From Fibrobacter sp. UWB10 (GTDB lineage Bacteria; Fibrobacterota; Fibrobacteria; Fibrobacterales; Fibrobacteraceae): 64,000 bases of DNA. Numbering within the stretch: the first letter of the stretch is position 1; each line of letters opens with the position of its first letter. The notes beneath the pieces were generated by a model that worked only from the letters and a program-made list of their open reading frames with translations, did no database searches and had not been told where the DNA came from. The DNA lies in assembly GCF_900182935.1 (NCBI RefSeq), contig NZ_FXUE01000001.1, positions 930,001 through 994,000 on the forward strand, written 5' to 3'. The position numbers and the translations under genes are program-made. Shown here in pieces: positions 5,580 through 40,315 of this stretch.

Positions 5580-6494
5580 ATGATCCCCTCTCGCAACAGT
5601 CTCGCCTTTTGGCATTTGCTCGCCATTATTACCATCACCTTTTGGGGCACGAGCTTCGTAAGCACGAAGGTGCTCTTGAATCATGGTTTTTCGGCAGTGC
5701 AAATCTTCTCGTTGCGTTTTGCGATTACCTACTTGATCCTTTTGGCGGCAAGTCACAAGCAATTCCGCAGCCAGAACTGGAAGCATGAACTGATTCTGTT
5801 CATCAGTGGCATTACCGGATGTACACTTTACTTTTGGACCGAAAATACGGCGCTTTCGTTTTCGCCATCAAGCAACGTGGCGCTCATTATTTGCGCGAAC
5901 CCGTTACTCATTCTGATTCTCGGAAGCATTTTCTATAAAAGCGAACGACTCGGCAAGCGACAAGTTCTAGGCTGTCTTGTCACATTCGTTGGCATGGTAT
6001 TGGTGGTTCTAAACGGCAAATTCGTCTTGAAGCTTTCGCCCGTGGGTGATCTGCTCGCCTGCAGCGCCGGAGTCATGTGGGCAATCTATTCGCTAGTCGT
6101 GAAGCAGCTGAACGGCAAATACAATTCACTGTTCATTACGCGCAAGATGTTTTTCTACGGCACCCTGATGTCTATTCCCGCCCTGTTTATCGAAGCGCGA
6201 GGCGATGTGTCGAAAGTGCTTGATATTCCGTGGCAGAACTTTATGGAACCCGTCGTCGCTTTTAACTTTTTGTGCCTTACAGTATGTTGTTCCCTGTTCG
6301 GATATCTTATTTGGAACAATGTGCTGAAACAGCTCGGCACAGTTCTTGCGAGCAACTACGGCTATGTAGCACCCTTGATTACCATGATTACGGCTGCAAT
6401 TGCTCTTGGCGAACGCATTACGCCTATAGCCATCGTGGGTGCCGCCGCCATTATTGTGGGAATGCTTTTGGCGGAATTTAAGCGCAAGGCTTAA
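5580..6494 (+). CDS. DMT-superfamily (EamA) exporter
   Basis: Ten-helix inner-membrane drug/metabolite transporter made of two EamA repeats, about 304 residues. The first repeat starts at WHLLAIITITFWGTSFVSTK and the second with LLACSAGVMWAIYSLVVKQL; the protein ends in a short basic tail (EFKRKA). Substrate unknown; relatives export amino acids, riboflavin or drugs. The upstream TTG at 5571 is in frame, but the ATG at 5580 is preferred because TATTTTT lies 7 bases before it, the spacing seen at other genes here, and there is no Shine-Dalgarno sequence. It ends 4 bases inside the convergent FISUMP gene. Confidence 0.85.
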   Translation: MIPSRNSLAFWHLLAIITITFWGTSFVSTKVLLNHGFSAVQIFSLRFAITYLILLAASHKQFRSQNWKHELILFISGITGCTLYFWTENTALSFSPSSNVALIICANPLLILILGSIFYKSERLGKRQVLGCLVTFVGMVLVVLNGKFVLKLSPVGDLLACSAGVMWAIYSLVVKQLNGKYNSLFITRKMFFYGTLMSIPALFIEARGDVSKVLDIPWQNFMEPVVAFNFLCLTVCCSLFGYLIWNNVLKQLGTVLASNYGYVAPLITMITAAIALGERITPIAIVGAAAIIVGMLLAEFKRKA

Positions 6495-7453
6495 TTCTTG
6501 ATACAGCGGATAGAATAGGCGAAATAGCCCTTGCGGCCCGAATCCCTATCCAAATCATACTGGTTCGAAAGTATCCAAGCGTATGTAAGCGTGTTGCTAC
6601 TTACTCCCCAGAAATAGGCCTTGGTGCCTTCGCCATCGCATTGACCGGTACTTGCGCGGTAACCACCCGGAACAGCAGAGAATCCAGTTGCATTCGTAGC
6701 GACAACATTGTCTCCGAAAATCGTATTTTCCCAAACATCGAGCGCACGCAGGGAACCGTTCTGGTCGCCGAATTCATCCTTTGCCGCATTGACCAAGTCC
6801 CACCAATCGCGTTCTGTGGGCAACGACCAGCCATCGGGGCAAGCCTCCTCGGCATCGAATTCTTGATAAAGGCGGCCATACTTCGTGCAGTTTGCGGGAA
6901 TGTCATCATAGCAGAAGCTGGAATCCGTCACAAAGTTCAAGTTCTCGGCCATCCAAGTCTTGCCGCCGATAATGACAGTCTTGTAGCTCTTGCCGTCGCG
7001 GGAATCAGAGAGCGTGCCGTATTCTACAGCGGGGACTGTTACGGACGAACTTGATTCAGGCTCATCGATTTCGCAAGGAGGCATGTCGATTTCGATAAGC
7101 GCATCTCCTTCGCACTTGTATAGAATCTGCAAGTCGTAATCGTATATTGTGTTGCTATTCGGGCAGCTAATCGATTTACGTTCCATATTGCGCACGGTAA
7201 TGTTTGCCATGCCATTCGTGAAGCATTCCTTCGCGGCAGAACTTGTAGGGAGCGTCGCAGAACTCGCGGGCAATGCCGCAGACGAAGAGGAAAGCGGTCC
7301 CGCCACATCGCCAGAACTTGCAGGCGTATTATCTTGTGAGTTTGTCGGCACCGGGTCGCTTTGCGGGCCAGAAGACGAATCCGAATCGCATGCGACAAGC
7401 GCAAGCCCCAAAGCAAGTGCTGCAGAGGCAGCAGAAAGTTTCTTGAAATCCAT
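6491..7453 (-). CDS. FISUMP-domain lipoprotein
   Basis: Secreted lipoprotein of 320 residues. Signal peptide with lipobox LVAC (Cys about residue 22), a Ser/Pro-rich linker to about residue 75, a short middle part with Cys residues, then the FISUMP domain (TIGR02145) from about residue 150: GKSYKTVIIGGKTWMAENL, CYDDIPANCTKYGRLY, CPDGWSLPTERDW and a final SIRCIKN. The domain is abundant in Fibrobacter and its role is not established; a surface or fibre-binding role is inference. Last gene of a seven-gene operon, 14 bases after the DUF1653 gene, with a good ribosome site (GGGAGG). Confidence 0.92.
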   Translation of the reverse strand: MDFKKLSAASAALALGLALVACDSDSSSGPQSDPVPTNSQDNTPASSGDVAGPLSSSSAALPASSATLPTSSAAKECFTNGMANITVRNMERKSISCPNSNTIYDYDLQILYKCEGDALIEIDMPPCEIDEPESSSSVTVPAVEYGTLSDSRDGKSYKTVIIGGKTWMAENLNFVTDSSFCYDDIPANCTKYGRLYQEFDAEEACPDGWSLPTERDWWDLVNAAKDEFGDQNGSLRALDVWENTIFGDNVVATNATGFSAVPGGYRASTGQCDGEGTKAYFWGVSSNTLTYAWILSNQYDLDRDSGRKGYFAYSIRCIKN

Positions 7454-7708: not shown

Positions 7709-8578
7709 TTATTTCTCAAGGAACTCGAGCAGCTTGGGCATGAGCGCGGTCGCATCTTTTACGCCCATGTCGTAAAGTTCCACAAGCTTTGACTTGTCCT
7801 TTTCGAGGCGCGAAATCTTAAATTCGGCGCTCGGACGAATCATGAACGCAGAGCCCTGAGCGACACGTTCCTCTAGCGTGCGCAAGCACTGGTTGTAACG
7901 AATGTGGCGGTTCCTTGCCGCTTCGATAAACTTCGGGTACTTGCGGTAGAAAAGCTTGAACAGGGGAATCATGGAGTTCGGCTTCTTGACAAAGCCTTCG
8001 GGCTGTGTGACGATAACGACCTGCTTTTTGTAGCCCATGCCCGCAAATACTTCGAACGGAATGCTGTCGCCGACACCGCCGTCCAAGAGTTTCATGCCAT
8101 CGACTTCTACGATATGGCTCATGAGCGGGAGTGAGGCCGAGGCGCGAATCTTGTCCATGTCTTCGGACTTATCCAAATCGCGGGTAAGCAAATATTCCGG
8201 GCCACCTGTTTCGAGATTCGTCGCGACTGCGTAGAATTTTGTTTCGGCTGTATTCTCGCGGAACTTTTCGAAGTCAAACGGATCAATGACACGCGGGATT
8301 TCGTTATAGCAATATTTGATTTCGAAAAATTCACCGGTGCGAATCAGGTTGCCCCAGCTCATGTAGCGCTTGCTCGCCGAATGAATGGTGTCGAGGCGCT
8401 TGTTGCGTTCGCGTTGTTCCGATAAATAGCTGCAAAGGTGCGTTGCACCTGCAGAAGTTCCGGCACATGCTCCAAACTTGATTCCGTTATCTAAAAATAC
8501 ATCCAGTACGCCAGCCGAATACGCACCACGCATGCCGCCGCCTTCAACAGCAAGCGCAATGTCCTTATACATCGCCAT
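7709..8578 (-). CDS. patatin-like phospholipase / RssA-type serine hydrolase
   Basis: Patatin-family lipid acyl hydrolase, about 289 residues. It has the oxyanion motif GGGMRG (13-18), the nucleophile elbow GTSAG (Ser about 42) and the catalytic aspartate in LLDGGVGD. The length and the absence of a signal peptide fit the cytoplasmic YjjU/RssA-like group. The ATG at 8578 overlaps the NUDIX stop by one base (TAATG), which implies translational coupling; an ATG at 8599 would lie inside the NUDIX gene. Substrate unknown. Confidence 0.88.
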   Translation of the reverse strand: MAMYKDIALAVEGGGMRGAYSAGVLDVFLDNGIKFGACAGTSAGATHLCSYLSEQRERNKRLDTIHSASKRYMSWGNLIRTGEFFEIKYCYNEIPRVIDPFDFEKFRENTAETKFYAVATNLETGGPEYLLTRDLDKSEDMDKIRASASLPLMSHIVEVDGMKLLDGGVGDSIPFEVFAGMGYKKQVVIVTQPEGFVKKPNSMIPLFKLFYRKYPKFIEAARNRHIRYNQCLRTLEERVAQGSAFMIRPSAEFKISRLEKDKSKLVELYDMGVKDATALMPKLLEFLEK

Positions 8579-9111
8579 TAGGCATTCTCCATAAGCCACA
8601 AGAAATCTTTCGGATGTTCCACAAATTTTTCAGGATGCAACTTGTGCTTGGCAAAAAATTCTTCGCGAGTCATCCAGGTAAAGCTATCGACTTCGCCCGG
8701 CTGCGGCACAAGCGAATTCGCTTCGTCGTCGCTAAGGGAAATCTTGTAGACATCGTAGTATTCGTTGTCGAGGTAAGAGCCGCCGTTAAGCACGCTTTCG
8801 TGCTTAGCCTCGAATAAATATTCGAGGTCGCGCGAACTCTTGTGCACACCCAGTTCTTCGCGCAGTTCGCGCACGGCGGCATTCACGCTAGAATCTCCGG
8901 CCGAAATATGGCCCGCGCAACTTGTGTCAAAAAGTCCTGGATTGTTTTCTTTTACGCGACTGCGCAACTGGAACAGAATGCGGCCTTTGCTATCGAAAGC
9001 CCAAATATGCACCGTACGATGCCACAGCCCCTTGGCGTGAACTTCGGTGCGCCCGCGAGCATAGCCCGCCGGCGTTCCGTCCGCATTCAACACATCAATT
9101 TGTTCTTCCAT
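8578..9111 (-). CDS. NUDIX hydrolase (IPP-isomerase-like subgroup)
   Basis: 177-residue NUDIX protein. The NUDIX box runs from GHISAG to RELREELGV; the first conserved glutamate is replaced by Asp (G-x5-D-x7-R-E-L-R-E-E-L-G-V), while the catalytic REx2EE part is intact. The N-terminal part (VHAKGLWHRTVHIWAF) and the DTSCAGHIS lead-in resemble the Idi/YfcD branch. Its start lies inside the 3' end of the kinase-like gene (17-base overlap) and its stop overlaps the patatin start. Substrate not predictable. Confidence 0.85.
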   Translation of the reverse strand: MEEQIDVLNADGTPAGYARGRTEVHAKGLWHRTVHIWAFDSKGRILFQLRSRVKENNPGLFDTSCAGHISAGDSSVNAAVRELREELGVHKSSRDLEYLFEAKHESVLNGGSYLDNEYYDVYKISLSDDEANSLVPQPGEVDSFTWMTREEFFAKHKLHPEKFVEHPKDFLWLMENA

Positions 9112-11596
9112 TCATGACCTGTTCTTTAATCGCCATAACTATGCGTCTGTATTCGCGCATCAAGTCGTCATGACGCACACGCACATGGTCGTAATCACCT
9201 TCGTTGCAAGCATATTCCATCGACTTGGCGATACTTGCAATTTCTACCGCGCCAATAAACAACGACGCGCTCTTCAAAGCCTGCACCATCAAACGGTAAC
9301 TTTCAAAATCTTCGTCTTTGAACAGCTTATTCAAAACAACGTCAAACTGCTTATCGACATAAGTCATCATTTTCTTGCGGTAAAGAGCTTCGTTGCGTTC
9401 GCAGCAGTATAGACCGACTGAAACATCCAATACATCGCTCGGCAAGTTTTCGTGTTGTTTTTTAGGCTCTTGCACCACAACCTTCTTGGCAGTCTTATCT
9501 TCAACCAAGGGCTGTACCGATATATCTTCTTTTTTCGGAACTTCATCGATACGGTGCACCAATTCCTTAGGCAAGTATTTCAGCAAAATCGCGAACAGCG
9601 CATCTTCATGAACCGGCTTTGTCAAGAAGTCCGCAAAGCCCATGGTTTCACAAATCGTCTTCGCAGAAGCGCTATCATCTGCCGTAAGCATCACAATCGG
9701 CGTATGCTTATTCGGATGATCGTCAAGCGTCTTCATAATCGTCAAAATATCCAAGCCATCGATAATCGGCATCGTATGGTCAAGGAATATCACATCGTAA
9801 TGATTTCGTCTGAAGTTTTCGATTGCTTCCATTCCGTTCGAAACAGAATCGAACTTGGCAAGCGTTTCCTTCATAAGTCCGCTCATGACGCGCAAATTCA
9901 TCGGAAGGTCGTCAATGGCAAGAATCGATGCGTTGGGAGCAAAGAAGTGAATGGATTCATTTTCAGTGGCCTGCACAAACTCATTATAACGAGTCTTGAA
10001 ATCACCCATCAATTCATTCTTTACCACTTTCTGCGGGATAGCGATTTCTATTACCGGCAAACCATCTGCAATATGATCGCTCTTGATTGTACCGCCAAGT
10101 GCCACCACCAACATTCTAACAAGCGTAAGCGAAGCACCTGTCCAGCTGACACCTGCATCTGGGACATCAATTATCAGGTCAATCTTTTGCGTATTCTCTT
10201 CGCCATTTTCGTCTTCTGCCCAGCGGTAACCAATCTGGATAATATTCGCCCCATTCACCACAAGGCGTTCCGCATTGAACAAAATGTTGCTTATAATCTG
10301 CCACAGGCGCGATTCATCGCCTTCGAGCTGGGTCGGAATCGAAGAATCCACCAGCAATTCAAATTCCTCTGATTTCTTACGATGGCGTGCAGAACTATAG
10401 CAATCACAAAGAACCGCGAACAAATCATATTCCTTAATTGAAATGTCGAGACTGTTCGTGCGAATCTTGTTCATGTCCAAAATGTCATTCGACAGCAACA
10501 ACAGTTCCTGACCAGACGCACGCATTTCAGAGACGTATTCATTCAAAGATGCATCCGAAGATTCTCTCAAGACTATCGCACCCATATTCAAGACATTCAT
10601 CGCCGGATTGCGAATATCCTGACCTACGGATTCCATCATGCGCAAGCGATCCAGTTCATCGCTCAGCAAATGATTTTTCAAATTGTACTCGCGATGTTTG
10701 CGGACCAAGAAGAATCGAATACCAAGCCCTGTCAAGAACAGAAGCATCAAAAGGCCAACAACCCAGAACACCAAGAAAGACAGGCGATCTAGTCCGTTAG
10801 CAACATCTTCACCGGCAACCATTCCCACCAAGATAAAGTCATCTTGTTTAAGCTTGGCCATGTAGAAATAAAATACTTCATCGCCAATTTGAACATTCTT
10901 GGAAGTTGCAAGACCGCCACGGTCCATATCCTGGCGGAGCCAACCGTAAACTTTATCCACATCAAAATCGACCCAAGCAGAATCTTGCCGCCAGCTTCCA
11001 GTGTTATTCTGAATTAAGACCCTACCATCGTTATCGATAATCTGCGCAAAACATTTCTTTTCAAAGCAGTCTACATCAAAGAAATTTGTAATAGGAATAT
11101 CGTTGTACTGTACGTACAATACATAGCGCACATTGTAGCGATTGTACACAGGCACGCCAAGCACAATTCCCATCTTGTCGCTATAGCAAATCGATTGATT
11201 GCCACGGAAAGATTCCATAATGCAACGGTAGCTTTCATCGGGCAAAGCAAACACTGATTTTTCCGTATATACCGTACCATCTAGCGCAATCAACCCGTAA
11301 CTCGACTTTCCATTTTTCAAATCCGAAAGCGCCATAAAATCTTCGACATGTGAACCATCAGCCTCAATCTTACGGGCAATCATCGAAAGCGCATTCAAGC
11401 GCATGTGCAATTTTTCATTGGCAAGGTCTGCAATCAATTCCGCCTGCTGAGACACCTGCTTTGTCACATAGACATTCAAGAGTGCATCGAGCTTTACACG
11501 CAGCAAGACACAGACAAGGCACAGCACAAACACGACGATGGCAAGCCACACCACCATCTTGATGTTGATTCTTGTAGTTCTAGGGGTTAATTCCAT
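9095..11596 (-). CDS. degenerate hybrid histidine kinase-like sensor (receiver intact, phospho-acceptor His residues lost)
   Basis: 833-residue membrane sensor. TM1 about residues 14-33, a periplasmic double-Cache-like region about 40-265, TM2 about 273-297. A HisKA-like helix follows, but its H-box reads GQDIRNPAMN with Gln326 where the phospho-accepting His belongs. The ATPase domain keeps part of the N-box (IISNILFNAERL) but the G1 box is degenerate (DVPDAGVSW) and no GxGLGL is visible. The receiver domain (about 557-675) is complete: D562/D563, phospho-acceptor D606 (FLDHTMP), T638, K660. The C-terminal Hpt-like helix bundle has QALKSAS, again Gln (772) in place of His. It is probably a pseudokinase working through its receiver. 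Overlaps both neighbours by 17 bases. Confidence 0.85.
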   Translation of the reverse strand: MELTPRTTRINIKMVVWLAIVVFVLCLVCVLLRVKLDALLNVYVTKQVSQQAELIADLANEKLHMRLNALSMIARKIEADGSHVEDFMALSDLKNGKSSYGLIALDGTVYTEKSVFALPDESYRCIMESFRGNQSICYSDKMGIVLGVPVYNRYNVRYVLYVQYNDIPITNFFDVDCFEKKCFAQIIDNDGRVLIQNNTGSWRQDSAWVDFDVDKVYGWLRQDMDRGGLATSKNVQIGDEVFYFYMAKLKQDDFILVGMVAGEDVANGLDRLSFLVFWVVGLLMLLFLTGLGIRFFLVRKHREYNLKNHLLSDELDRLRMMESVGQDIRNPAMNVLNMGAIVLRESSDASLNEYVSEMRASGQELLLLSNDILDMNKIRTNSLDISIKEYDLFAVLCDCYSSARHRKKSEEFELLVDSSIPTQLEGDESRLWQIISNILFNAERLVVNGANIIQIGYRWAEDENGEENTQKIDLIIDVPDAGVSWTGASLTLVRMLVVALGGTIKSDHIADGLPVIEIAIPQKVVKNELMGDFKTRYNEFVQATENESIHFFAPNASILAIDDLPMNLRVMSGLMKETLAKFDSVSNGMEAIENFRRNHYDVIFLDHTMPIIDGLDILTIMKTLDDHPNKHTPIVMLTADDSASAKTICETMGFADFLTKPVHEDALFAILLKYLPKELVHRIDEVPKKEDISVQPLVEDKTAKKVVVQEPKKQHENLPSDVLDVSVGLYCCERNEALYRKKMMTYVDKQFDVVLNKLFKDEDFESYRLMVQALKSASLFIGAVEIASIAKSMEYACNEGDYDHVRVRHDDLMREYRRIVMAIKEQVMNGRTN

Positions 11597-12677
11597 CGAC
11601 TACCCCCTCGACAAACCAATCGAACCGATGCAACATAGCATCATCTGTCATGCTTTCGCCCTCGCCCACGCGAACTTCGCCATGGTTATCAACAACCGGG
11701 CCATAAAACACATCGAACTTTCCTTGAAGGAGTCGAAGTTTTTCTTCTTCAACTACTTGACGAATCGGATCTTCTACATTTCGAGTCAATGGAGACAATT
11801 CCATAATTTCGCTTTCAAGGCCAAGCCAATAAGCCTGTCCTTCAAACTTATCCTGAATTACCTCGCGAATCTTCGGGATGTAGAAATTTTCCCAGCGCCA
11901 AACAGGAGCAGTCAAGAACCGATCCGGAAACCTCTTGGAATTGTCTCTGTTATAACCAATAATCCATATTTTATTATTGTCAGCAATTTCATACGGCGAC
12001 AAAGCATCCACATGTGTCGTCATGACATCGATGTTGTGTTGTTCAAAAAGCGAGCGCGTCGCATCGGCAGACATCGACTCGTCGGTCCAAGAACCACTCC
12101 AACTGACATAAACTTTTGCATTCGGGTTTACTTTTTTCACGCCGAGCGTAAACGCGTTAATTCCACGAACCACTTCAGGAATATTAATCGCGGCGACATA
12201 ACCGATTTCATTCGTTTTCGTCTTTAATCCAGCAACAAGCCCCGAAAGGTAACGCAGCTGGTACATACGGCCAAAAAAGGTGGAAAGATTCGTTGTCGTC
12301 TGCAATCCTGTCGCATGGAAAAATTTTGTCTCCGGATGGTTTCTCGCCTCAATCAACGCAGGCTCGCCATATTCAACAGAAGTTGCCACAACAATTTTCG
12401 CCCCATTCTTGATGGCCCGTTCCATCACTTCGCGCGCCGAATAATCGGTAGGGACATTTTCATAATAGGCGACTTCTAGATTCAGAACCGATTCGGCCTT
12501 CTGCAAAGCCTCGTAATGAGTTTCATTCCAGCTATGGTCATTGCGAAGCCCAGGCATAATCACAGCCACACGGACTTTTTTCTGTTCTTCCTGAAATTCC
12601 GTTTCCGGCCCGAACATGAGCAGAACGCCAACAATCATCAAAAGAGCAATCGTCGATGTTAGAACAACCCACCTCAT
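11580..12677 (-). CDS. BMP-family (PnrA/Med-like) periplasmic binding protein, membrane anchored
   Basis: 365-residue protein with one N-terminal hydrophobic anchor (about 5-22) and no lipobox, then a basic-membrane-protein type substrate-binding fold: VAVIMPGLRNDHSWNETHY, GAKIVVATSVEYGEPAL, the FGRMYQLRYLSGLVAGLKT segment and IGYVAAINIPEVVRGINAF. Family members bind nucleosides or similar small molecules. There are no ABC permease or ATPase genes nearby; instead it lies between two Cache-containing kinase-like genes, with ATGA overlap upstream and 17-base overlap downstream. That suggests a ligand-sensing rather than a transport role (inference). Confidence 0.85.
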   Translation of the reverse strand: MRWVVLTSTIALLMIVGVLLMFGPETEFQEEQKKVRVAVIMPGLRNDHSWNETHYEALQKAESVLNLEVAYYENVPTDYSAREVMERAIKNGAKIVVATSVEYGEPALIEARNHPETKFFHATGLQTTTNLSTFFGRMYQLRYLSGLVAGLKTKTNEIGYVAAINIPEVVRGINAFTLGVKKVNPNAKVYVSWSGSWTDESMSADATRSLFEQHNIDVMTTHVDALSPYEIADNNKIWIIGYNRDNSKRFPDRFLTAPVWRWENFYIPKIREVIQDKFEGQAYWLGLESEIMELSPLTRNVEDPIRQVVEEEKLRLLQGKFDVFYGPVVDNHGEVRVGEGESMTDDAMLHRFDWFVEGVVDGINP

Positions 12678-15310
12678 CGATCCTCAAGCCCCCTCTGGAT
12701 GTTTTCAATCAGTTCTGCATGCAAGGCCATCGCCAGTTCATGATTTTCCTGAATAACTTTCATTCGAGATTCGCGACTTGCATTTTCCAAATTGCGGAAC
12801 TTGTCAGCCATCGACAATGCACCAATGGCAACAGACGAATCATAAAGAACATGCATGTAGAAACGGTAATTGTCCCAGTCCGAATTCTTGTAGCAGTTAT
12901 CCACATTTCTGCACAACGGCGAACCCACATATTCCTGCAACATTTCTACATAAATTTCTTCGTCATCAGCGCAGTAATTCAAGCCAGCCTTCACATCCAA
13001 GAATTCTTCAAACTGTTTAAAGCGTTCGACTAATGTCGGGGCAGTAACAGAGCGCAATTCAATTTCATCATCGTCGTACACGCCTTTATTCTTTTGGTCA
13101 GGCGCAACCACGCCATCCATCATATTCGTAGAAGGCACCATAGGTTCCGACAAGTCTTCAAGCGTGAGTACAAGCTGCTTGGGCAAATACCACTTCATCG
13201 CACGGAACAAATCACGTTCCTTAAGCGGCTTAATCAAGTAATCCGCAAAGCCCTCGCCAAGGAACGAATCCTTCGTAAACGATTCCCCTTCCGACACAAG
13301 TGCAATAACAGGCGTGTCTTTATTCGGAGACTTCTCCATCATCCTCATTTTTCTATAGACATCTATACCGTCCATCACCGGCATCATGTGGTCCAAGAAA
13401 ATCAAGTCGTAATGCCTAGATTCCACCAATTGCAAGCACTGGTGCCCGCTCAACGCCTCGTCAATTTTCATCTGCGAATTCTTCAAGAATCCACGGAACA
13501 CCTTGAGGTTCAATTCCACATCGTCGACAATCAAAATGCGCGCTTCGGGAGCAAGGAACACATCGGCAAGGTCCTTATTCTTGCGAGTGGCATTCCTGTA
13601 ACGCATTGCAAAGTCGCCCATGGGTTCGGTATTCAGCACCAGCTGCGGGATTTCTACCAAGAACGAAGAACCTTCGCCATAGCGACTGCTAACCGTCATC
13701 TGCCCGCCGCATTTTTTCAGCAGTTCCTGCGTAAGGCTGAGTCCAAGGCCCATTCCTTCGACGCTCTTATTTTCATTAGAATCGTCGGTAATGTATTTCC
13801 TGAAAATAGAGCCACGGTCTTCTTTTCGAATGCCAACCCCCGTATCCTTGACGGCGAGTTTCAGCATGATATAGTCATCTGTACGAAGCGAACCCATCGG
13901 AGGCAAGTTGTCAAAGCCCACCGACAAAGACACTCCGCCCACTTCGGTAAACTTGATTGCATTCGAAAGCAAATTGTTGATTATCTGGATAATGCGATTT
14001 TCATCGCCCCACAAGCAAGACGGAATATCCGGGTCGCAATCCACATGGAACGCAAGCCCCTTGGCCTTGGCCTTCGGTTCGTTTTCATTGAAACATTCCT
14101 GCAGAACCGAGAACACATCGTATTCCATTGATTCAATGCTCAAACGGCCCGATTCAATTTTCGAAACATCCAAGACATCATTTACAAGCGAAAGAATACT
14201 CTGTCCAGCACTTTGAATATTGTTGGAATACTCTTTCATGCTGTCGTCATGCAAATCTTTCTGCACAATGGTATTCATGCCAAGAATACCATTCATTGCC
14301 GAACGGATTTCATTACTCATGCTCGTAAGAAAAGCCGTCTTAGAACGGTTTGCGCGAATCAGCCTCATGTACTTTGAATACAGCGCCGTCAGCAACAATG
14401 CAATTAGCACATATATCAAGACAATAATCATTGCATTGCGCAAAATGGTCAAATGCAAAGGTGCCCAAAGCCCACGTTCTTCAACCAATCGGGCAACATA
14501 CCATTCCCCTTGCACCAACGTCGAAAACACGCGATAGTCTTTGCCACGCAAATTGATTACAAACGGATCACCGCTCGCATACGAAATCGAATTGGCAAGC
14601 TTTTCTTCATCTGAGCCCCAGAAATCAGACGACTTGTAATTCCTACCGTTCTGGGCAATGTCAGTATGCGAAATAACCACGCCTTTTTTATCGATAATCA
14701 CCAACATGTTAGACAAGTCGCTCTTCTTGACTTTAGCAAGCAAGTCCTTCAAATACATGTCTACAGCAAGAACACTCTTCCTATCCGAAAGGCGCAAGCT
14801 AATAGTCACCACCTGTTCGCCCGTATGCGGGTTTAAGTGCGTCGGAATCAATGCGACCTTGTCCTTTTCCATAGGAGCATTCTGGTACCAAGGACGATTC
14901 GAGGGCACATAACCTACGGCAGGAGTCCAACGCCCGCCATTAAAGAATTCTTCGCGCAGAATTCCGTACATATTGCACAAGGTAAAATCATCCGAGTGCT
15001 TGTAATATTCTGCTTCGGAAACGAGCAGAGATTCTATCTGCGCCTGCTTGGCACCATGATCCAAACTCTTTTCTGCAATGCGAGTAGTCACTCTTAATAT
15101 AGATTCGCCCCGCGCCAAGAATCCATCGATCGCTTCGGCGTCTCGTTCATTCGAAAGCGAACCCGCATTCAAGATTTCTTGTTGAACCGTTTCGACGTAA
15201 TCTCCAAAGACATACGCGCTGACTGCGGCAAAGGTTAGCCCCACTGCCACAAGAATTATCCCGTACAAAGCCCTTACGCGTTTTTCGCTTTCTATTGTCT
15301 TTGAGAACAC
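12674..15310 (-). CDS. hybrid histidine kinase-like sensor with Asn in the H-box, receiver and Hpt domain
   Basis: About 878 residues: TM1 (about 13-37), periplasmic dCache sensor with the RPWYQNA signature, TM2 (about 288-312), HisKA-like helix, complete HATPase (N-box INNLLSNAIKFT, G1 DTGVGI, G2 GMGLGL), receiver (DD at about 596/597, acceptor D640 in FLDHMMP, Lys about 695) and a C-terminal Hpt-like bundle. The H-box reads SNEIRSAMNGILG with Asn (about 333) where His is expected. In the receiver the conserved Thr/Ser is Val (IALVSE), while the Hpt motif keeps its His (MHVLYDSS, about 820). The GTG at 15310 is preferred over the ATG at 15346 because TATATTT lies 5 bases before it. Confidence 0.82.
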   Translation of the reverse strand: MFSKTIESEKRVRALYGIILVAVGLTFAAVSAYVFGDYVETVQQEILNAGSLSNERDAEAIDGFLARGESILRVTTRIAEKSLDHGAKQAQIESLLVSEAEYYKHSDDFTLCNMYGILREEFFNGGRWTPAVGYVPSNRPWYQNAPMEKDKVALIPTHLNPHTGEQVVTISLRLSDRKSVLAVDMYLKDLLAKVKKSDLSNMLVIIDKKGVVISHTDIAQNGRNYKSSDFWGSDEEKLANSISYASGDPFVINLRGKDYRVFSTLVQGEWYVARLVEERGLWAPLHLTILRNAMIIVLIYVLIALLLTALYSKYMRLIRANRSKTAFLTSMSNEIRSAMNGILGMNTIVQKDLHDDSMKEYSNNIQSAGQSILSLVNDVLDVSKIESGRLSIESMEYDVFSVLQECFNENEPKAKAKGLAFHVDCDPDIPSCLWGDENRIIQIINNLLSNAIKFTEVGGVSLSVGFDNLPPMGSLRTDDYIMLKLAVKDTGVGIRKEDRGSIFRKYITDDSNENKSVEGMGLGLSLTQELLKKCGGQMTVSSRYGEGSSFLVEIPQLVLNTEPMGDFAMRYRNATRKNKDLADVFLAPEARILIVDDVELNLKVFRGFLKNSQMKIDEALSGHQCLQLVESRHYDLIFLDHMMPVMDGIDVYRKMRMMEKSPNKDTPVIALVSEGESFTKDSFLGEGFADYLIKPLKERDLFRAMKWYLPKQLVLTLEDLSEPMVPSTNMMDGVVAPDQKNKGVYDDDEIELRSVTAPTLVERFKQFEEFLDVKAGLNYCADDEEIYVEMLQEYVGSPLCRNVDNCYKNSDWDNYRFYMHVLYDSSVAIGALSMADKFRNLENASRESRMKVIQENHELAMALHAELIENIQRGLEDR

Positions 15311-15364
15311 AATCAAAATATAAGATATTTCGGGACAAAAATTCACTATGCTATATTTCTATAC
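15311..15364. promoter_or_regulatory. divergent promoter region, kinase operon / serine hydrolase
   Basis: The 54 bases between the GTG at 15310 and the ATG at 15365 hold TATATTT boxes in both directions, each 5-6 bases from its start codon. Both transcripts would have almost no leader. Confidence 0.55.
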
Positions 15365-34082: not shown

Positions 34083-36653
34083 ATGAACAATCTTAGCCTT
34101 ATCCTCAATACCTATTTTGTCGATGCCGATTTTGACGAGATTATACATTCTTTCTGGAAACTTCAAAATTCTGCAAAAATCGGCATGGACGAAGAAAATT
34201 TTGCGAAGCGTTTTCTAAAACAGGAAAAAGCTTATGGCTATGATGTTGTAAAAAACATTAATCAGTTTGCTATGGATTGTTGGATAACGGACAAGAACGG
34301 GAAGAAAAACGTTTTCAACATTTGTGCCAAGGCGGCCGAAGATATGTTAGTTTACGAAAATGACGAACCCGTATGCCGTCAACAAGAATATTTGAGGTGG
34401 AATGAAATTTCAAGAATTGTAGGCGAAGATTTGTTAATTCTTTCTCATTTAGCAAAAAATATTTCTCGAACAAAAATTCATTCATTTGCTTGGAAACCTT
34501 TCATCAAATCCGATTCCATAACCATAAACAATATTCTAGAAAAAGGACTTCACGAACTTCATTCACATATGAATGGCGCGTCGCTCAACTTTGATATTAA
34601 TTGGCTAGGAATAATGAATGCCGCCGAGTTCAATTCAAGCGATTTAAAAAAAGTATTAAAAGCTGGTTTTTCGACTGAATTGATGAATGCGGAAAAAGCG
34701 ATTGCAATTCGACTATACTTGTATTCAAAAACAAATGGAATTACTAATATCGACAAGAAACAGTTATTCTCACTTTTGAAAAGCAATAATTTTTTAGAAA
34801 TCCAAAGTCAACTCACGGACTTTAAACGCAGTATTCTGATTCAGAAACAAAATAGTTTTAAATTTGGGAATGGCAGAATTGATTACGCTATTCCCAAATG
34901 CATAACTTCTAAAGATACCTCGCGTTATTATAACGTTCCTTTAATTGGCGAACGAAAATTTTTATACGATGTCCTGCAAAAAATTTACTTTCCAGAATCT
35001 AATGACAATGAATACGGCGATCTTCTTTATGCGTATATCGTTGCAAAAAATAATTTCAGGAAAGTTATTGTTCAATACGATCAAATTAAAGGTTTTGGCT
35101 ATTTTGACAAAATTCAAGATCGCAAAATGCTCCTTAAAGAAGGATCCATTTATGAACGTTTAAGCCCTTACATGGCCGTACATAACGTCGTTTGCAATCA
35201 GCCTATAAAAAGCATGGAAATGCGAATTGCTCCCAAAAAAGAATCTCAGGAGCTTTTAAAAGCCGTAAAAAGATATAACCGAAACGTAAATGAAGACAGC
35301 TTTCGTTTTTTTCAAAAAAGCAAGATTCAGGAAGGTGTCAAGTTAGGCTACATCCTGCACTTTATCAAACAAGAAGATAAGGAGTTAAATAAATTAAAAA
35401 AAGAAGACTGGTTCAATGGCGATTTGTATTGCCGTAACTACAAGGTCCGCAAAATTATTGACAAACAGGCGAGGGCAATTGAAACCCTAATTAAGGAAAG
35501 CAATCCCTATGTTATTGGTGGATATAAAAAGAAAAAAAAAACTCTTTTTAAGAACGCAAACCAAAATAATAACGTTCTTTGTCGCATAGTCGGGATAGAT
35601 GCTGCTAATTCCGAATTTTTCTGTCGCCCAGAAGTCTTTGCTCCTGTTTTCCGACGTCTAAAACACGTCAATCGCCGAACACAACTAGATTTCCTAATAG
35701 AACACACCGATGCCCAACTTGGACGCACCTTCCATGCAGGAGAAGATTATTATGACATTGTTGACGGTTTAAGAGCCATCGACGAATGCATTACCTTTAT
35801 GGAATTTGGAGAGGGAGACCGTATAGGCCATGGAGTCGCTCTTGGTACGAATGCAAAAAAATATTACGAAAATCGCCAAAATAGAATTATTTTGCCCAAA
35901 CAAACATTACTTGACAATATTGTGTGGGCATACATAAAAATAGAGGAATTCGGTATTGAGGACCGAAGTGGTTTGAAAAGACGTCTTTTTGAACAATTTC
36001 ATGAGTTGTATCGTGAAATTTATGCAGATGTTATAAAAAATGACAAAAAAATGTACCAATGCGTAAGCATTTCTGACTATTATGATTCTTGGAAACTAAG
36101 AGGTGATAAACCTAAATTCAATTCTAAAAGCCGCTATTTTAAACCATACGAGCAAAGAGTTGCAAACGGTTTAGATGAAATACGAAACACCCCAAAATTA
36201 GAGGGACTTTTCCGCGCATATCATTTTTCAGGACAAGCCAAGATAAAAGGAAACGAGAAAACGGAATATCGTCTTGAAGAAAAAGATTTTAAAATTATCG
36301 CAGAGCTTCAAGCAAATATGCGAAAAACTATTGAAAAGAAGCATATTTCCATAGAAACGAACCCGACATCGAATCTCCAAATAACAGATGTTGAGATGTA
36401 TTGCGAGCATCCCGTTACTGTTATGAACGACACTTTCCTATCAACAAATCCAAAGTCCGCAATAGACGTATCCATTAACACAGATGACCAAGGTGTTTTT
36501 GCAACATCTCTTGAAAAAGAATTCACCTTGATGGCTCTCGCTCTAGAAAAAGAGACAGATGCGGATGGAAATCCAGTCTACAAGAGAACCGACATTTACC
36601 AATGGCTAAATATGATCCGCGCATCAGCAGAACCAAGAAGTTTTTTAGCATAG
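34083..36653 (+). CDS. rdrB: RADAR-type adenosine deaminase RdrB
   Basis: 856-residue adenosine-deaminase-superfamily protein, far larger than housekeeping ADA (about 330-350). The TIM-barrel metal and catalytic motifs are all present: HSHMNG (H160, H162), HAGE (H551, E554), RIGHG (H583), ETNPTSN (758-764, the SxN-type loop) and TDD (800-802). The gap of nearly 390 residues between HxH and HAGE holds an insertion. In RADAR defence RdrB deaminates adenosine-containing nucleotides or RNA during phage infection and assembles with the ATPase RdrA. First gene of a three-gene operon with the membrane protein 9 bases downstream. Codon use is strongly AT-rich, unlike the flanks, suggesting transfer. 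Confidence 0.88.
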   Translation: MNNLSLILNTYFVDADFDEIIHSFWKLQNSAKIGMDEENFAKRFLKQEKAYGYDVVKNINQFAMDCWITDKNGKKNVFNICAKAAEDMLVYENDEPVCRQQEYLRWNEISRIVGEDLLILSHLAKNISRTKIHSFAWKPFIKSDSITINNILEKGLHELHSHMNGASLNFDINWLGIMNAAEFNSSDLKKVLKAGFSTELMNAEKAIAIRLYLYSKTNGITNIDKKQLFSLLKSNNFLEIQSQLTDFKRSILIQKQNSFKFGNGRIDYAIPKCITSKDTSRYYNVPLIGERKFLYDVLQKIYFPESNDNEYGDLLYAYIVAKNNFRKVIVQYDQIKGFGYFDKIQDRKMLLKEGSIYERLSPYMAVHNVVCNQPIKSMEMRIAPKKESQELLKAVKRYNRNVNEDSFRFFQKSKIQEGVKLGYILHFIKQEDKELNKLKKEDWFNGDLYCRNYKVRKIIDKQARAIETLIKESNPYVIGGYKKKKKTLFKNANQNNNVLCRIVGIDAANSEFFCRPEVFAPVFRRLKHVNRRTQLDFLIEHTDAQLGRTFHAGEDYYDIVDGLRAIDECITFMEFGEGDRIGHGVALGTNAKKYYENRQNRIILPKQTLLDNIVWAYIKIEEFGIEDRSGLKRRLFEQFHELYREIYADVIKNDKKMYQCVSISDYYDSWKLRGDKPKFNSKSRYFKPYEQRVANGLDEIRNTPKLEGLFRAYHFSGQAKIKGNEKTEYRLEEKDFKIIAELQANMRKTIEKKHISIETNPTSNLQITDVEMYCEHPVTVMNDTFLSTNPKSAIDVSINTDDQGVFATSLEKEFTLMALALEKETDADGNPVYKRTDIYQWLNMIRASAEPRSFLA

Positions 36654-36662
36654 GAGTAGAAC

Positions 36663-37634
36663 ATGAAACCGGATTTTTCTCTACCATTTAATACATATGA
36701 TTTTTTTGGTTATTTACTGCCAGGGACATTATTCTCATTAGGATTAGTGGGTATATTTAATGAGGAAGTTTTAAATATCCTAAAAAACAATCATATTCAA
36801 AATTTGCAGCCATATTTTGCCATTATTTTAGCACTAATTGTTTGCGCCGGATTATATTTCGTTGGCCAAATTATTGGTTGTATAGGACATATAATCTATG
36901 ATAGATTAATTGTTCGAAATATATTAGGATACCCATTTTATACTATTCTAAATTGGAAACACAAAATGAATGAGATATTCCCATGGTTTTCTCATATAGT
37001 CATATTAACAAGTCTGTTCCTTATTTTATTTCCTTTTTTTATTTACACATCTATCATTCCAATTTGTTTTTGGATAATTTTTTCCCTTGTACTGTTTTTA
37101 AATAGGGAAAAATTAAAAAATTACAATCAAGACAACAAGAAAGAATTTGCTAAAGCATGCTTAAATAAACTTTCCAAAACATTCTGTAAGCTTACCGCAA
37201 CCGATTGCAAAGTCAACGACAGTTTAAAAAAATTGTTTGAAAAAAAATTAGATGATCGTCTTCAACTAAAAGAAGATGATTTTCAAGAATATAATTCTGA
37301 TATTTATTGGATTACATATATTGATTTAATGAAAATGAAAAATACATGTCATGAAAGAAAAATCAGCAATTGGTTGGATATGTATGGTTGTTTGAGAAAT
37401 TACAGTTGCGTATTCCTTCTTTTAGCCGTCATAGAGTCTTTGCATTTGTGGAAAAATGTTTTCGATTATGGTTCGGGTAGTTTAGACGGCCGCAATTTAT
37501 TCGTCTTGGTGTTTACGTTATTTTTTAGTCTTATTCTTTTTATGCGGTACTGGATCATGTATTATTCATACTATTCCAAATACATTATTCGAGCGTATGC
37601 GTTAGAAGATTTTAATTCGAATGAAAACAATTAA
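36663..37634 (+). CDS. multi-pass membrane protein of the RADAR locus, family not recognised
   Basis: 323 residues with about five or six hydrophobic segments: near 16-33, 48-76, two between 106 and 146, 240-256 and 272-298. A charged cytosolic-type loop (about 148-235) separates the halves. The N-terminus FNTYDFFGYLLPGTLFS resembles leaders I associate with defence-island membrane proteins, but I cannot name the family. Known RADAR accessories are a Csx27-like protein or a SLATT protein; this one is longer and I see no convincing match to either. AGGAG overlapping the rdrB stop serves as ribosome site. It sits between the deaminase and ATPase genes. Likely role: membrane anchoring or abortive effector (inference). 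Confidence 0.75.
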   Translation: MKPDFSLPFNTYDFFGYLLPGTLFSLGLVGIFNEEVLNILKNNHIQNLQPYFAIILALIVCAGLYFVGQIIGCIGHIIYDRLIVRNILGYPFYTILNWKHKMNEIFPWFSHIVILTSLFLILFPFFIYTSIIPICFWIIFSLVLFLNREKLKNYNQDNKKEFAKACLNKLSKTFCKLTATDCKVNDSLKKLFEKKLDDRLQLKEDDFQEYNSDIYWITYIDLMKMKNTCHERKISNWLDMYGCLRNYSCVFLLLAVIESLHLWKNVFDYGSGSLDGRNLFVLVFTLFFSLILFMRYWIMYYSYYSKYIIRAYALEDFNSNENN

Positions 37635-37654
37635 ACAAAATAAAGGATTAAAGT

Positions 37655-40315
37655 ATGTCTGAAAAAAAATTTAAGTTCTACATTGGCGACGAATCTCGCG
37701 TTGTAATCGAAGATATTGATAAAAGAAAGGAATCAATATTTAGCGAAGTATATGCCAAAACCTTTAAAGTTATGAACGACACCCTTGGCCTCATCTTATC
37801 CGACAAGAACCTGATAAAGAAAAAGAATCAAGAAGATAATACATGTCCTAGCAACATATATGCTTTTGTCGGGGATCGCGGAACAGGTAAAACCTCATGC
37901 ATGCGCTCTGTCGCAGAAATGCTCAAAAGCAACAATTCTTTTGGCAAGCTACTCCCTAATTTTAGTGAAAAAGAATTTGAAGTTTTAGATTCAACCGACC
38001 CTTCTTTTTTCACTAACGATAGAAATATTTTAGACATTTTCATAGGAAGACTTTTTTCCAAATTTAAATACTATGTTGAAAAAAATGGTTCCGAAAAAGA
38101 ATATGAAAAAAATGAAGTTTTCAAAGCATTTGAATGCGTAAAAGAATCCTTAACACGAATGAGTAAAAGGAACTTATGTGATGATGATACTGTTGATCAA
38201 TTAATGGGATTGAGCGCTTCTGTTGAGTTACAAAACAATATACATAAATTAATCAATCTGTATTTAAGCTACATCAATAAAGATTTTCTGGTCATTCCTG
38301 TAGATGATATTGATTTGCATACCATTTACGCTTTTGATATGGCGGAACAAATTCGAAAATATTTGACACAAGAAAATACTGTTATCTTAATGGCGCTAAA
38401 AATCGAGCAATTGGAATATGCTATAGAAAGACATTATTTGAGGCATTATAAGGATATGATTGAAAAAGGATTTATTGATGGAACGAAGATATCCGACATG
38501 GCTTCAAAATATATGATAAAACTTATCCCACAAGCTCATCGATTTCCCTTAAAATCAGTCGAAGAACTTGTAAATGAGCCTGTGGAAATAATTGAAAACG
38601 GGAATATTATCCCATTTAAAGAATCTATTTTGAAAGATATTATAACAGCACTTATTTTTAAAAAAACTCGTTATCTATTTTATCATTTGCAACGAGGAAA
38701 TAGCCCTATTATTCCTCACACGTTACGAGAAGTCCGTCACTTACTAGATTTTTTATATAGAATGCCTGATTATAATGAAAATGAGGACGGCAACTATAAC
38801 AAACGGCAATTTGAGGATTATTTCTTTAACATATGGATTCCTCATAATTGCGGGGCTTACAATAGTAGCATTCTAGTAGAATTTTTTAAATGTCAAGAAA
38901 TTGCTTCTTTCAATAGAAATGTTATTCAAAATCTAAAAAAAATATTTTTTGGTGATAATGATAACAATAGGGTCTCTCTTTATAGGACCATGATTGACGA
39001 TGATGACGATGATGGAAATAACTTACACAAAATTATAAATGGATTAAACAATGCATACAATATTTCTATTGGAGATGTTTTCGCAATCATTCGCTATTGT
39101 GAGAATGTCTTTACGGATAAGTCTGCGTTTTTCTTTGCTTTGAAATTTATATATTCATTGAAATTATATAACAGTTACAATAGACTTGTTGATGAAGTTA
39201 GTGAAGGATGTTCCGAAAAGGAAGGCCTAAGAAAAAATTTAGCTAGAGATAGATTACCCGATTATAAAATACTTGTTGGAGGATCGTTCTTTAATTTTGA
39301 TAAATTAAATGCGAATAATAGTACGAATCGTTTCGACTATAGGGCTATTAGTATTTTCGAAATTAGAAGTAAACTTGATTTATGCGTGGGAAAAATGCAT
39401 GAAATAAAAAATGAAGATTTATTCCACGTGATTGAATTTTATGCTCTTTCGTTAAGCCGTAAATATTATTGGGAAAATGAAGCCTCTTTTAGAAAGTCAG
39501 AAGATTTTATATATGATAGTAAATACGCCATTGACGATTACGCCATCTTTGATACATTCAGCATATTTGCAAATATAACTGATGTGAAAAGGTGTTATGA
39601 AAAAATTAGTCCAATCTTGTGGGAAGCTGCTAAAAAAGAGACAAATAATTCCCTATATAATAAAATAAAAAAATATTGTGAGAATGATAGAACATCTCAA
39701 AATCCATTCCTTTCTTGTTGCTGTATTAGAAATGTTGACATTCTCGATAGTTTAGATGTATCTTTAAGAAAAATAGAACCGTCCTATCAAGATGAATTTA
39801 TTGATAAAACATTTCTTGATTATCAAGTGCATGATGAACTTTGTTACAATTTAATAACTGATGCTTATGCCATAATAGCATCTTTTTCTAAAAAAACATA
39901 TGATTTGAATAATAATGGAGAGTATTTTGAAATAAAGTTTTTGTTTGGGCCGGCAATATACGAGTGTCTTGTGCAAAAAAATGATAAAGATGAAATTGTC
40001 GGAGGAAATGAGAATTTTAAGAAAGAGTTTTTAAAAATTTATTCTGGAACAACTTTGGTAAAACAAAAAATAATAAATAAGATAAGCGAAATTTTAAAAG
40101 GAAAAATAGAATCAAATCCTGAAGTTCTTGATTCTAGAGGTGCGATGAGCTCGCTAATACAAGATATTCCTCTTCGCAGAAGTATGCCTGCATTGAAGAA
40201 ATATATTCGAGAAGACGTGCCTTATTTAACAAGACTTCGTTCCATTGAAGCAAAACGAGACCGATTTGTCAATGATGTTGTCGGATTCCTTCAATCCCTC
40301 CCCGTAATAGACTAA
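37655..40315 (+). CDS. rdrA: RADAR-type P-loop ATPase RdrA
   Basis: 886-residue ATPase. Walker A is GDRGTGKT (73-80) and Walker B LVIPVDDID (212-220), followed by a sensor-like LMALKIEQLEYAIERHYL. The KAP/STAND-like N-terminal ATPase region is followed by about 500 residues of helical sequence with no recognised catalytic motif. Size, the adjacent giant adenosine deaminase and the membrane partner match RdrA of RADAR, where RdrA forms rings that feed or activate RdrB. Last gene of the operon; a stem-loop follows at 40322. AT-rich like its partners. Confidence 0.87.
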   Translation: MSEKKFKFYIGDESRVVIEDIDKRKESIFSEVYAKTFKVMNDTLGLILSDKNLIKKKNQEDNTCPSNIYAFVGDRGTGKTSCMRSVAEMLKSNNSFGKLLPNFSEKEFEVLDSTDPSFFTNDRNILDIFIGRLFSKFKYYVEKNGSEKEYEKNEVFKAFECVKESLTRMSKRNLCDDDTVDQLMGLSASVELQNNIHKLINLYLSYINKDFLVIPVDDIDLHTIYAFDMAEQIRKYLTQENTVILMALKIEQLEYAIERHYLRHYKDMIEKGFIDGTKISDMASKYMIKLIPQAHRFPLKSVEELVNEPVEIIENGNIIPFKESILKDIITALIFKKTRYLFYHLQRGNSPIIPHTLREVRHLLDFLYRMPDYNENEDGNYNKRQFEDYFFNIWIPHNCGAYNSSILVEFFKCQEIASFNRNVIQNLKKIFFGDNDNNRVSLYRTMIDDDDDDGNNLHKIINGLNNAYNISIGDVFAIIRYCENVFTDKSAFFFALKFIYSLKLYNSYNRLVDEVSEGCSEKEGLRKNLARDRLPDYKILVGGSFFNFDKLNANNSTNRFDYRAISIFEIRSKLDLCVGKMHEIKNEDLFHVIEFYALSLSRKYYWENEASFRKSEDFIYDSKYAIDDYAIFDTFSIFANITDVKRCYEKISPILWEAAKKETNNSLYNKIKKYCENDRTSQNPFLSCCCIRNVDILDSLDVSLRKIEPSYQDEFIDKTFLDYQVHDELCYNLITDAYAIIASFSKKTYDLNNNGEYFEIKFLFGPAIYECLVQKNDKDEIVGGNENFKKEFLKIYSGTTLVKQKIINKISEILKGKIESNPEVLDSRGAMSSLIQDIPLRRSMPALKKYIREDVPYLTRLRSIEAKRDRFVNDVVGFLQSLPVID

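Follow-up and report, generated by a model that had tools for sequence, protein, structure and literature searches.

The window examined here is a 64,000-nucleotide stretch of contig NZ_FXUE01000001.1 (positions 930,001 to 994,000) from Fibrobacter sp. UWB10, and all coordinates given below are positions within it. On its minus strand lies a gene encoding a BMP-family binding protein (BP), flanked by the genes of two hybrid kinases, an upstream one (SK1) and a downstream one (SK2); the three are referred to together as the triad. Both kinases lack the phospho-accepting histidine of the H-box, as had been claimed in an initial annotation of this DNA: the H-box of SK1 reads SMSNEIRS, with Asn345 in place of the histidine, and that of SK2 reads SVGQDIRN, with Gln326. 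The triad genes, a NUDIX hydrolase gene and a patatin-like phospholipase gene are all encoded on the minus strand with overlaps of 4-22 bp between neighbouring genes (4-17 bp among the triad members), and SK1-BP-SK2-NUDIX-patatin is an apparent five-gene operon. The features of the triad are as follows.

12674 to 15346, minus strand: SK1, a hybrid pseudokinase of 890 aa counted from the GTG at 15346, with the domain order dCache-DHp (no His)-CA-REC-Hpt (open reading frame list and alignment of orthologues).
14369 to 15289, minus strand: periplasmic dCache sensor of SK1 with its flanking transmembrane helices (alignment to the dCache chemoreceptors 6iov, 5ave and 3c8c, E 3e-6; PF02743 in orthologues).
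14141 to 14359, minus strand: DHp (HisKA) domain of SK1, without a phospho-acceptor (Pfam and comparison of invariant columns).
14312 to 14314, minus strand: H-box codon AAT of SK1, His replaced by Asn345 (residue table of 13 triads).
13622 to 14140, minus strand: CA (HATPase_c) domain of SK1 (Pfam; residue table).
13187 to 13543, minus strand: receiver of SK1 (Pfam; residue table).
12677 to 12976, minus strand: Hpt domain of SK1, with His832 at 12851-12853 (residue table; helical bundle in the AF2 model, pLDDT ~90).
11580 to 12677, minus strand: BP, a BMP/PnrA-like binding protein (PF02608, E 2e-53; PDB entries 3s99 and 6pi5; pocket alignment).
9095 to 11596, minus strand: SK2, a hybrid pseudokinase with the order sensor-DHp (no His)-degenerate CA-REC-degenerate Hpt.
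10619 to 10621, minus strand: H-box codon CAG of SK2, His replaced by Gln326 (residue table).
9992 to 10444, minus strand: degenerate CA domain of SK2, with the ATP lid and G2 gone and no PF02518 match.
9572 to 9931, minus strand: receiver of SK2 (Pfam; residue table).
9281 to 9283, minus strand: Hpt position of SK2, His replaced by Gln772 (residue table).

The SK1 start that is kept across relatives is the GTG at 15310, the position at which the initial annotation had placed the end of the region.

Following the earlier suggestion that other Fibrobacter be surveyed, 80 genomes of the genus, some of them incomplete, were searched for the triad. Both H-box histidines are lost in 12 genomes, namely that of the window (G000), a second of the same species (G102), and G080, G003, G103, G067, G009, G029, G034, G019, G036 and G079; the named records of triad loci include metagenome-assembled genomes of Fibrobacter succinogenes. 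In the thirteenth triad (G100) the H-box His of SK1 is lost, that of SK2 is kept, and the Hpt His is lost in both proteins. Across the 13 triads the SK1 residue is N, N, R, R, S, S, R, R, R, R, R, R and T (N, S or R in the 12 double-loss genomes), and the SK2 residue is Q, K or T in all except G100. The phospho-acceptor by which a functional HisKA domain is recognised is thus missing from SK1 and SK2, from both proteins in 12 genomes; other HisKA domains inspected in the window's genome retain their His, and the loss is not a genome-wide norm. Sequencing error, which would have undone the original observation, was ruled out by the same residues and codons in the second genome of the species and by ten more genomes without both histidines, several of them by other codons. 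Against Pfam HisKA, SK1 scores 45.0 bits and SK2 scores 21.2 bits (under the cut-off), compared with 67-70 bits for the active paralogues described below. Judged by these residues, SK1 and SK2 cannot autophosphorylate on a DHp histidine, and mutual complementation of the two proteins, as had been proposed, is excluded for canonical autophosphorylation, because neither DHp domain has an acceptor His.

The ATP site of SK1 is kept, with its N, G1, F and G2 boxes, an HATPase_c match at E 6e-20, and an N-box Asn, G1 Asp/Gly and G2 Gly that are invariant in 13/13 triads. The CA domain of SK2 has no HATPase_c match, and its ATP lid and G2 box are lost in the 12 double-loss genomes, yet the N-box Asn and G1 Asp persist in 13/13. 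His832 of the SK1 Hpt domain is present in 12/13 triads (the exception being G100), and the usual Lys of this domain is replaced by Tyr, Cys or Ile (window motif HVLYDSS); the Hpt His of SK2 is replaced by Gln or Arg in 13/13, and the Lys is present in the window. The earlier description of one kinase with a ruined ATP site and a Gln in its Hpt motif, and of another with ATP-binding boxes and an Hpt His, is borne out for SK2 and SK1, respectively. The persistence of the SK1 ATP-site residues and Hpt His after the loss of the DHp His could point to a rewiring similar to CheA, in which the ATP-binding CA domain would phosphorylate His832 directly, the His-less DHp domain would only dimerise (as CheA P3 does), and the receivers would then accept the phosphoryl group; the SK1 CA and Hpt domains are also strongly constrained. 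However, the Hpt Lys is missing, the Hpt His is lost in G100, a P5/coupling domain is absent, and we know of no precedent for such a conversion in a HisKA hybrid kinase; this explanation is considered a long shot.

In the SK1 receiver, Asp608, Asp609, Asp652 and Lys706 are invariant in 13/13 triads, and the Thr/Ser position, which is Val684 in the window, is Val, Ala or Thr across the triads (lost in 10/13, with Thr retained in 3). Neither this Val nor the missing Hpt Lys of SK1 had been noted in the initial annotation. The SK2 receiver of the window has the acidic pair, the phospho-Asp, the Thr/Ser and the Lys, and phospho-Asp606 is found in 13/13. Cache sensors had been assigned to both kinases; the assignment stands for SK1, the sensor of which aligns to dCache chemoreceptors at E 3e-6 and matches PF02743 in its orthologues, but was overstated for SK2, where the match is sub-threshold (E 0.08). 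An RPWY segment in the SK1 dCache domain aligns with chemoreceptor dCache domains. The structure models are single-chain (mean pLDDT 77 and pTM 0.39 for SK1; 76 and 0.35 for SK2) and were used for domain-level matches only; at this level, the kinase cores of both proteins match ShkA, GacS, RetS and DivL, with GacS and RetS among the best, and the DHp-CA fold of SK2 is predicted to persist despite the loss of its motifs.

BP, correctly recognised from the outset as a BMP-family protein encoded between the two kinases, scores 181.7 bits against PF02608 (cut-off 24.1; E 2e-53), which places it in the BMP/PnrA-like family. Its N-terminus has a hydrophobic anchor segment that looks uncleaved and is without a lipobox Cys. 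The pocket was compared at eight positions mapped from AtzT, for which a guanine site has been described (PMC6834077), and the residues of BP at these positions are W50, S100, V101, E168, G172, W197, H222 and D224. Seven of the eight are identical in 3s99, a BMP protein of Brucella (W S V E G W H D in BP and W S F E G W H D in 3s99), with adenine modelled in the deposited structure (PMC6834077), and the set varies little among the BMP proteins encoded at the related loci. The aromatic sandwich and Ser/Glu/His/Asp pocket typical of purine-binding BMP proteins are formed by W50, S100, E168, W197, H222 and D224, and the ligand of BP is probably a purine base. AtzT and 3s99 share the fold family and purine pocket residues with BP; these are lone solute-binding proteins with a presumed role in uptake, whereas BP is N-terminally anchored. 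No permease or ATPase genes were recognised beside BP, the neighbours of which are NUDIX, patatin, beta-lactamase-like, TauE, EamA, antiporter and Fib_succ_major genes and one 360-aa open reading frame without a Pfam match, and a role for BP in ABC uptake was rejected on this basis.

Pairwise codon models gave omega values of 0.04-0.20 for SK1, SK2 and BP, compared to 0.05-0.17 for the active paralogues. By domain, omega is 0.056 (DHp), 0.046 (CA), 0.038 (REC) and 0.031 (Hpt, the tightest) in SK1, and 0.044, 0.067, 0.029 (REC, the tightest) and 0.072 in SK2; the corresponding values are 0.012, 0.051, 0.057 and 0.120 in the active paralogue HKb and 0.023, 0.040, 0.036 and 0.074 in HKa, all of these domain values being rough, as some pooled pairs are near synonymous saturation. 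Omega lies far under 1 in each domain of SK1 and SK2 (2 delta lnL >200 each). In the same 11 genomes, the fraction of invariant DHp columns is 0.40 for SK1 and 0.14 for SK2, versus 0.89 for HKb and 0.79 for HKa. By these comparisons of coding sequences, SK1 and SK2 are maintained by selection while their DHp domains, which would be the first to carry the phosphoryl group, are partly freed from constraint. A kinase fold under selection without an acceptor His places both in the descriptive, DivL-like class of pseudo-histidine kinases, and the earlier description of them as non-canonical was apt.

The same data bear on the idea that the triad is a redundant duplicate in ongoing decay. Catalytic residues have been lost in several lineages, and in a related clade of five genomes (G024, G023, G077, G072 and G076) the locus is devoid of BP genes, and the SK2 sensor is gone along with most catalytic motifs; however, reading frames and gene order are intact in 12 genomes, purifying selection is strong in every SK1 and SK2 domain, and the BP pocket is retained. 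Decay was rejected on omega and the domain-level constraint, and is regarded as very improbable. The tight constraint on the SK1 Hpt domain and the presence of its His in 12/13 triads would also suit a phosphotransfer intermediate in the membrane, similar to RcsD, a protein that has RcsC as its partner, a kinase-like part that is not phosphorylated, and a functional Hpt domain. A partner hybrid kinase would then phosphorylate SK1 through its Hpt domain, SK1 would hand the group on to a response regulator in the cytosol, and SK2 would be the regulatory subunit. This is quite unlikely, given that no orphan response regulator that could act as the acceptor was identified, that the Hpt Lys is gone, and that G100 is without the Hpt His.

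A tree was built from 378 columns of DHp-CA-REC with the His column removed, and contained 23 rows each of SK1 and SK2 orthologues. The SK1 and SK2 orthologues form two supported clades, each of which takes in intact forms (G010, G035 and G065), and HKa and HKb form separate clades. At least five changes of His state fall on the tree, all inside the SK1 and SK2 clades and none in those of HKa and HKb; since regain of the His is unlikely, these are taken as repeated losses. The intact forms have the order response regulator-histidine kinase-SK1-BP1-BP2-SK2 with every His, and only the SK1 His is lost in G008 and G075, the placement order of which is unsure, as the tree has long branches. Sets of BP1, BP2 and kinases with intact His are also found in Lachnospiraceae and Oscillospiraceae (L113, L124, L126, L127, L143, L150, L151, L159, L163 and L168), in several cases together with an HD-GYP response regulator. 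The ancestral state is seen in the His-intact relatives, both in three Fibrobacter genomes and in the Lachnospiraceae and Oscillospiraceae. The genus offers a natural series, from all His intact, to loss in SK1 only, to G100, to loss in both (12 genomes), and includes another pattern of loss in the G024 clade, where a differently degenerate pair of SK1 and a histidine kinase stands at a locus with no BP genes. At the orthologous loci L182-L186, in five Fibrobacter genomes, an SK1 relative keeps the DHp His in 4/5 with eroded ATP-site motifs, beside a short (566-575 aa) His-less kinase without a sensor; BP genes are absent there.

The search for a kinase or response regulator elsewhere in the genome, which had been recommended earlier, yielded a candidate partner in an active paralogue module that retains every His and is arranged as RR-HKa-BP1-BP2-HKb, in which the response regulator (RR) is REC-(REC-)HD-GYP. 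This module is found in 11/13 triad genomes (11/12 of the double-loss ones), and its position in the window's genome is as follows.

C1, 407.9-415.9 kb: active module (L041).

Active modules in Fibrobacter and in Lachnospiraceae/Oscillospiraceae (L041, L051-L057, L113, L143, L150 and others) have kinases homologous to those of the triad, and the pocket of their BMP proteins is the same; they differ in that every phospho-acceptor His is intact, there are two BMP proteins, and a response regulator gene is adjacent in the Fibrobacter modules and several others. As most of these genomes also carry an active paralogue, the way in which kinases become regulators of other kinases can be tested directly. 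A secreted protein, which we take by eye to resemble GH11 xylanases, is encoded 3' of the active module (L041 3856-4884; L054 10993-12003).

These data are best explained, with a probability of roughly one half, by a conserved SK1/SK2 pseudokinase pair that acts with the BMP protein in a RetS-like manner on the paralogue or on another kinase. We infer the formation of the complex, its ligand, its partner, the direction of its effect and its output as follows. SK1, SK2 and membrane-tethered BP would make up a receptor that responds to a ligand, probably a purine base, and in which ligand-loaded BP would act on the periplasmic domains. The DHp-CA cores of SK1 and SK2 would touch or heterodimerise with an active hybrid kinase in trans, and their receivers, with the SK1 Hpt domain, would be phosphorylated by a partner kinase or Hpt domain, such that the relay is drained or rerouted. 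The best candidate partner is the RR(HD-GYP)-HKa-BP1-BP2-HKb module, with turnover of cyclic di-GMP (c-di-GMP) as the expected output, which suggests that purine sensing may be linked to c-di-GMP turnover in fibre-degrading rumen bacteria. The ligand-gated phospho-sink put forward in the initial annotation fits the selection pattern, because the receivers and the SK1 Hpt domain are the most constrained cytoplasmic parts and the DHp domains are relaxed relative to the active paralogues; the sink function itself we infer. A more specific form, namely a receptor of two pseudokinases and a binding protein that is a ligand-gated phosphoryl acceptor, with the SK1 CA and Hpt domains draining the paralogous relay or, as in CheA, phosphorylating their own Hpt, and with the conversion visible stepwise across the genus, is put forward tentatively, the odds being somewhat against it.

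Several observations weigh against RetS-like action on the paralogous module. Neither the active BMP module nor its response regulator accompanies the triad in G079, a genome that is 100% complete, and the module is also missing from G100 (89% complete); it is therefore not an obligatory partner everywhere, and strict dependence of the triad on it is ruled out by G079. Shared ancestry confounds the association between triad and module (Fisher p 9e-9). One acidic-pair residue and the Lys are gone from the SK2 receiver in G036 and G079, and SK1, lacking the receiver Thr/Ser in most species as well as the Hpt Lys, may be weak in phosphotransfer. The losses in both receivers and in the SK1 Hpt domain, together with the absence of the DHp His from both kinases, would also fit a phosphorylation-independent receptor, in which BP and its ligand shift the conformation of SK1 and SK2 and thereby switch another kinase allosterically, or read a phosphorylated receiver, with no phosphoryl transfer. 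DivL of Caulobacter, which is without kinase or phosphatase activity yet binds DivK~P (PMC4211667), and the pseudokinase ChrS, which heterodimerises with its paralogue HrrS (PMC9491836), are precedents. The invariant phospho-Asp in both receivers, the SK1 Hpt His in 12/13 triads, and the tightest constraint on SK1 Hpt and SK2 REC exceed the needs of a pure scaffold, and this alternative is considered unlikely.

RetS of Pseudomonas aeruginosa, the model for the favoured reading, is a hybrid kinase that does not autophosphorylate, takes a phosphoryl group from its partner on a receiver Asp, and inhibits that partner (PMC5992135). The RetS-GacS system and the triad are alike in having a hybrid kinase with a periplasmic sensor and receiver(s) and no autophosphorylation, and the DHp-CA core is matched by both models. 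In RetS itself the H-box His and the phosphatase motif HExxT are present and the HATPase domain is degenerate, whereas SK1 is the opposite (ATP site kept, His lost); moreover, the triad has two paired pseudokinases with a BMP gene between them, and their action on a partner would be analogous. Single pseudo-histidine kinases such as DivL are already known. In DivL the H-box His is likewise replaced, and SK1 likewise retains the other kinase boxes; however, DivL stands alone, with a PAS sensor and a conserved Tyr, while the triad has a drifting residue (N/S/R), REC and Hpt domains, and two pseudokinases. The arrangement of a periplasmic binding-protein gene beside Cache-type sensor kinases, seen here from gene adjacency and domain types, resembles LuxP/LuxQ, as had been pointed out earlier, and TorT/TorS as well. 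LuxQ and TorS are active kinases; here the binding protein belongs to the BMP family and both kinases are without the acceptor His. The literature search, which also found papers on Hmr as precedents, returned no report of paired, co-encoded pseudo-histidine kinases coupled to a periplasmic binding protein, and nothing relevant on BMP proteins with hybrid kinases or on "histidine pseudokinase".

The remaining genes of the apparent operon and its immediate neighbour are as follows.

8578 to 9111, minus strand: NUDIX hydrolase gene, overlapping SK2 by 17 bp; almost every related locus that was read has it 3' of SK2 or of the SK2 orthologue.
7709 to 8599, minus strand: patatin-like phospholipase gene, apparently the operon's final gene, found at some related loci.
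6491 to 7453, minus strand: gene of a Fib_succ_major domain protein, adjoining the operon.

Scans for promoters and terminators gave counts no better than chance. The large genes at 34083-40315 (plus strand) were considered as a second triad, and were unrelated on inspection. The three genes there encode an adenosine deaminase similar to RdrB (PADLOC, E 5e-30), a membrane protein of 323 aa that has no match in PADLOC, and an ATPase similar to RdrA (E 4e-13), and together look like a RADAR-type anti-phage locus.

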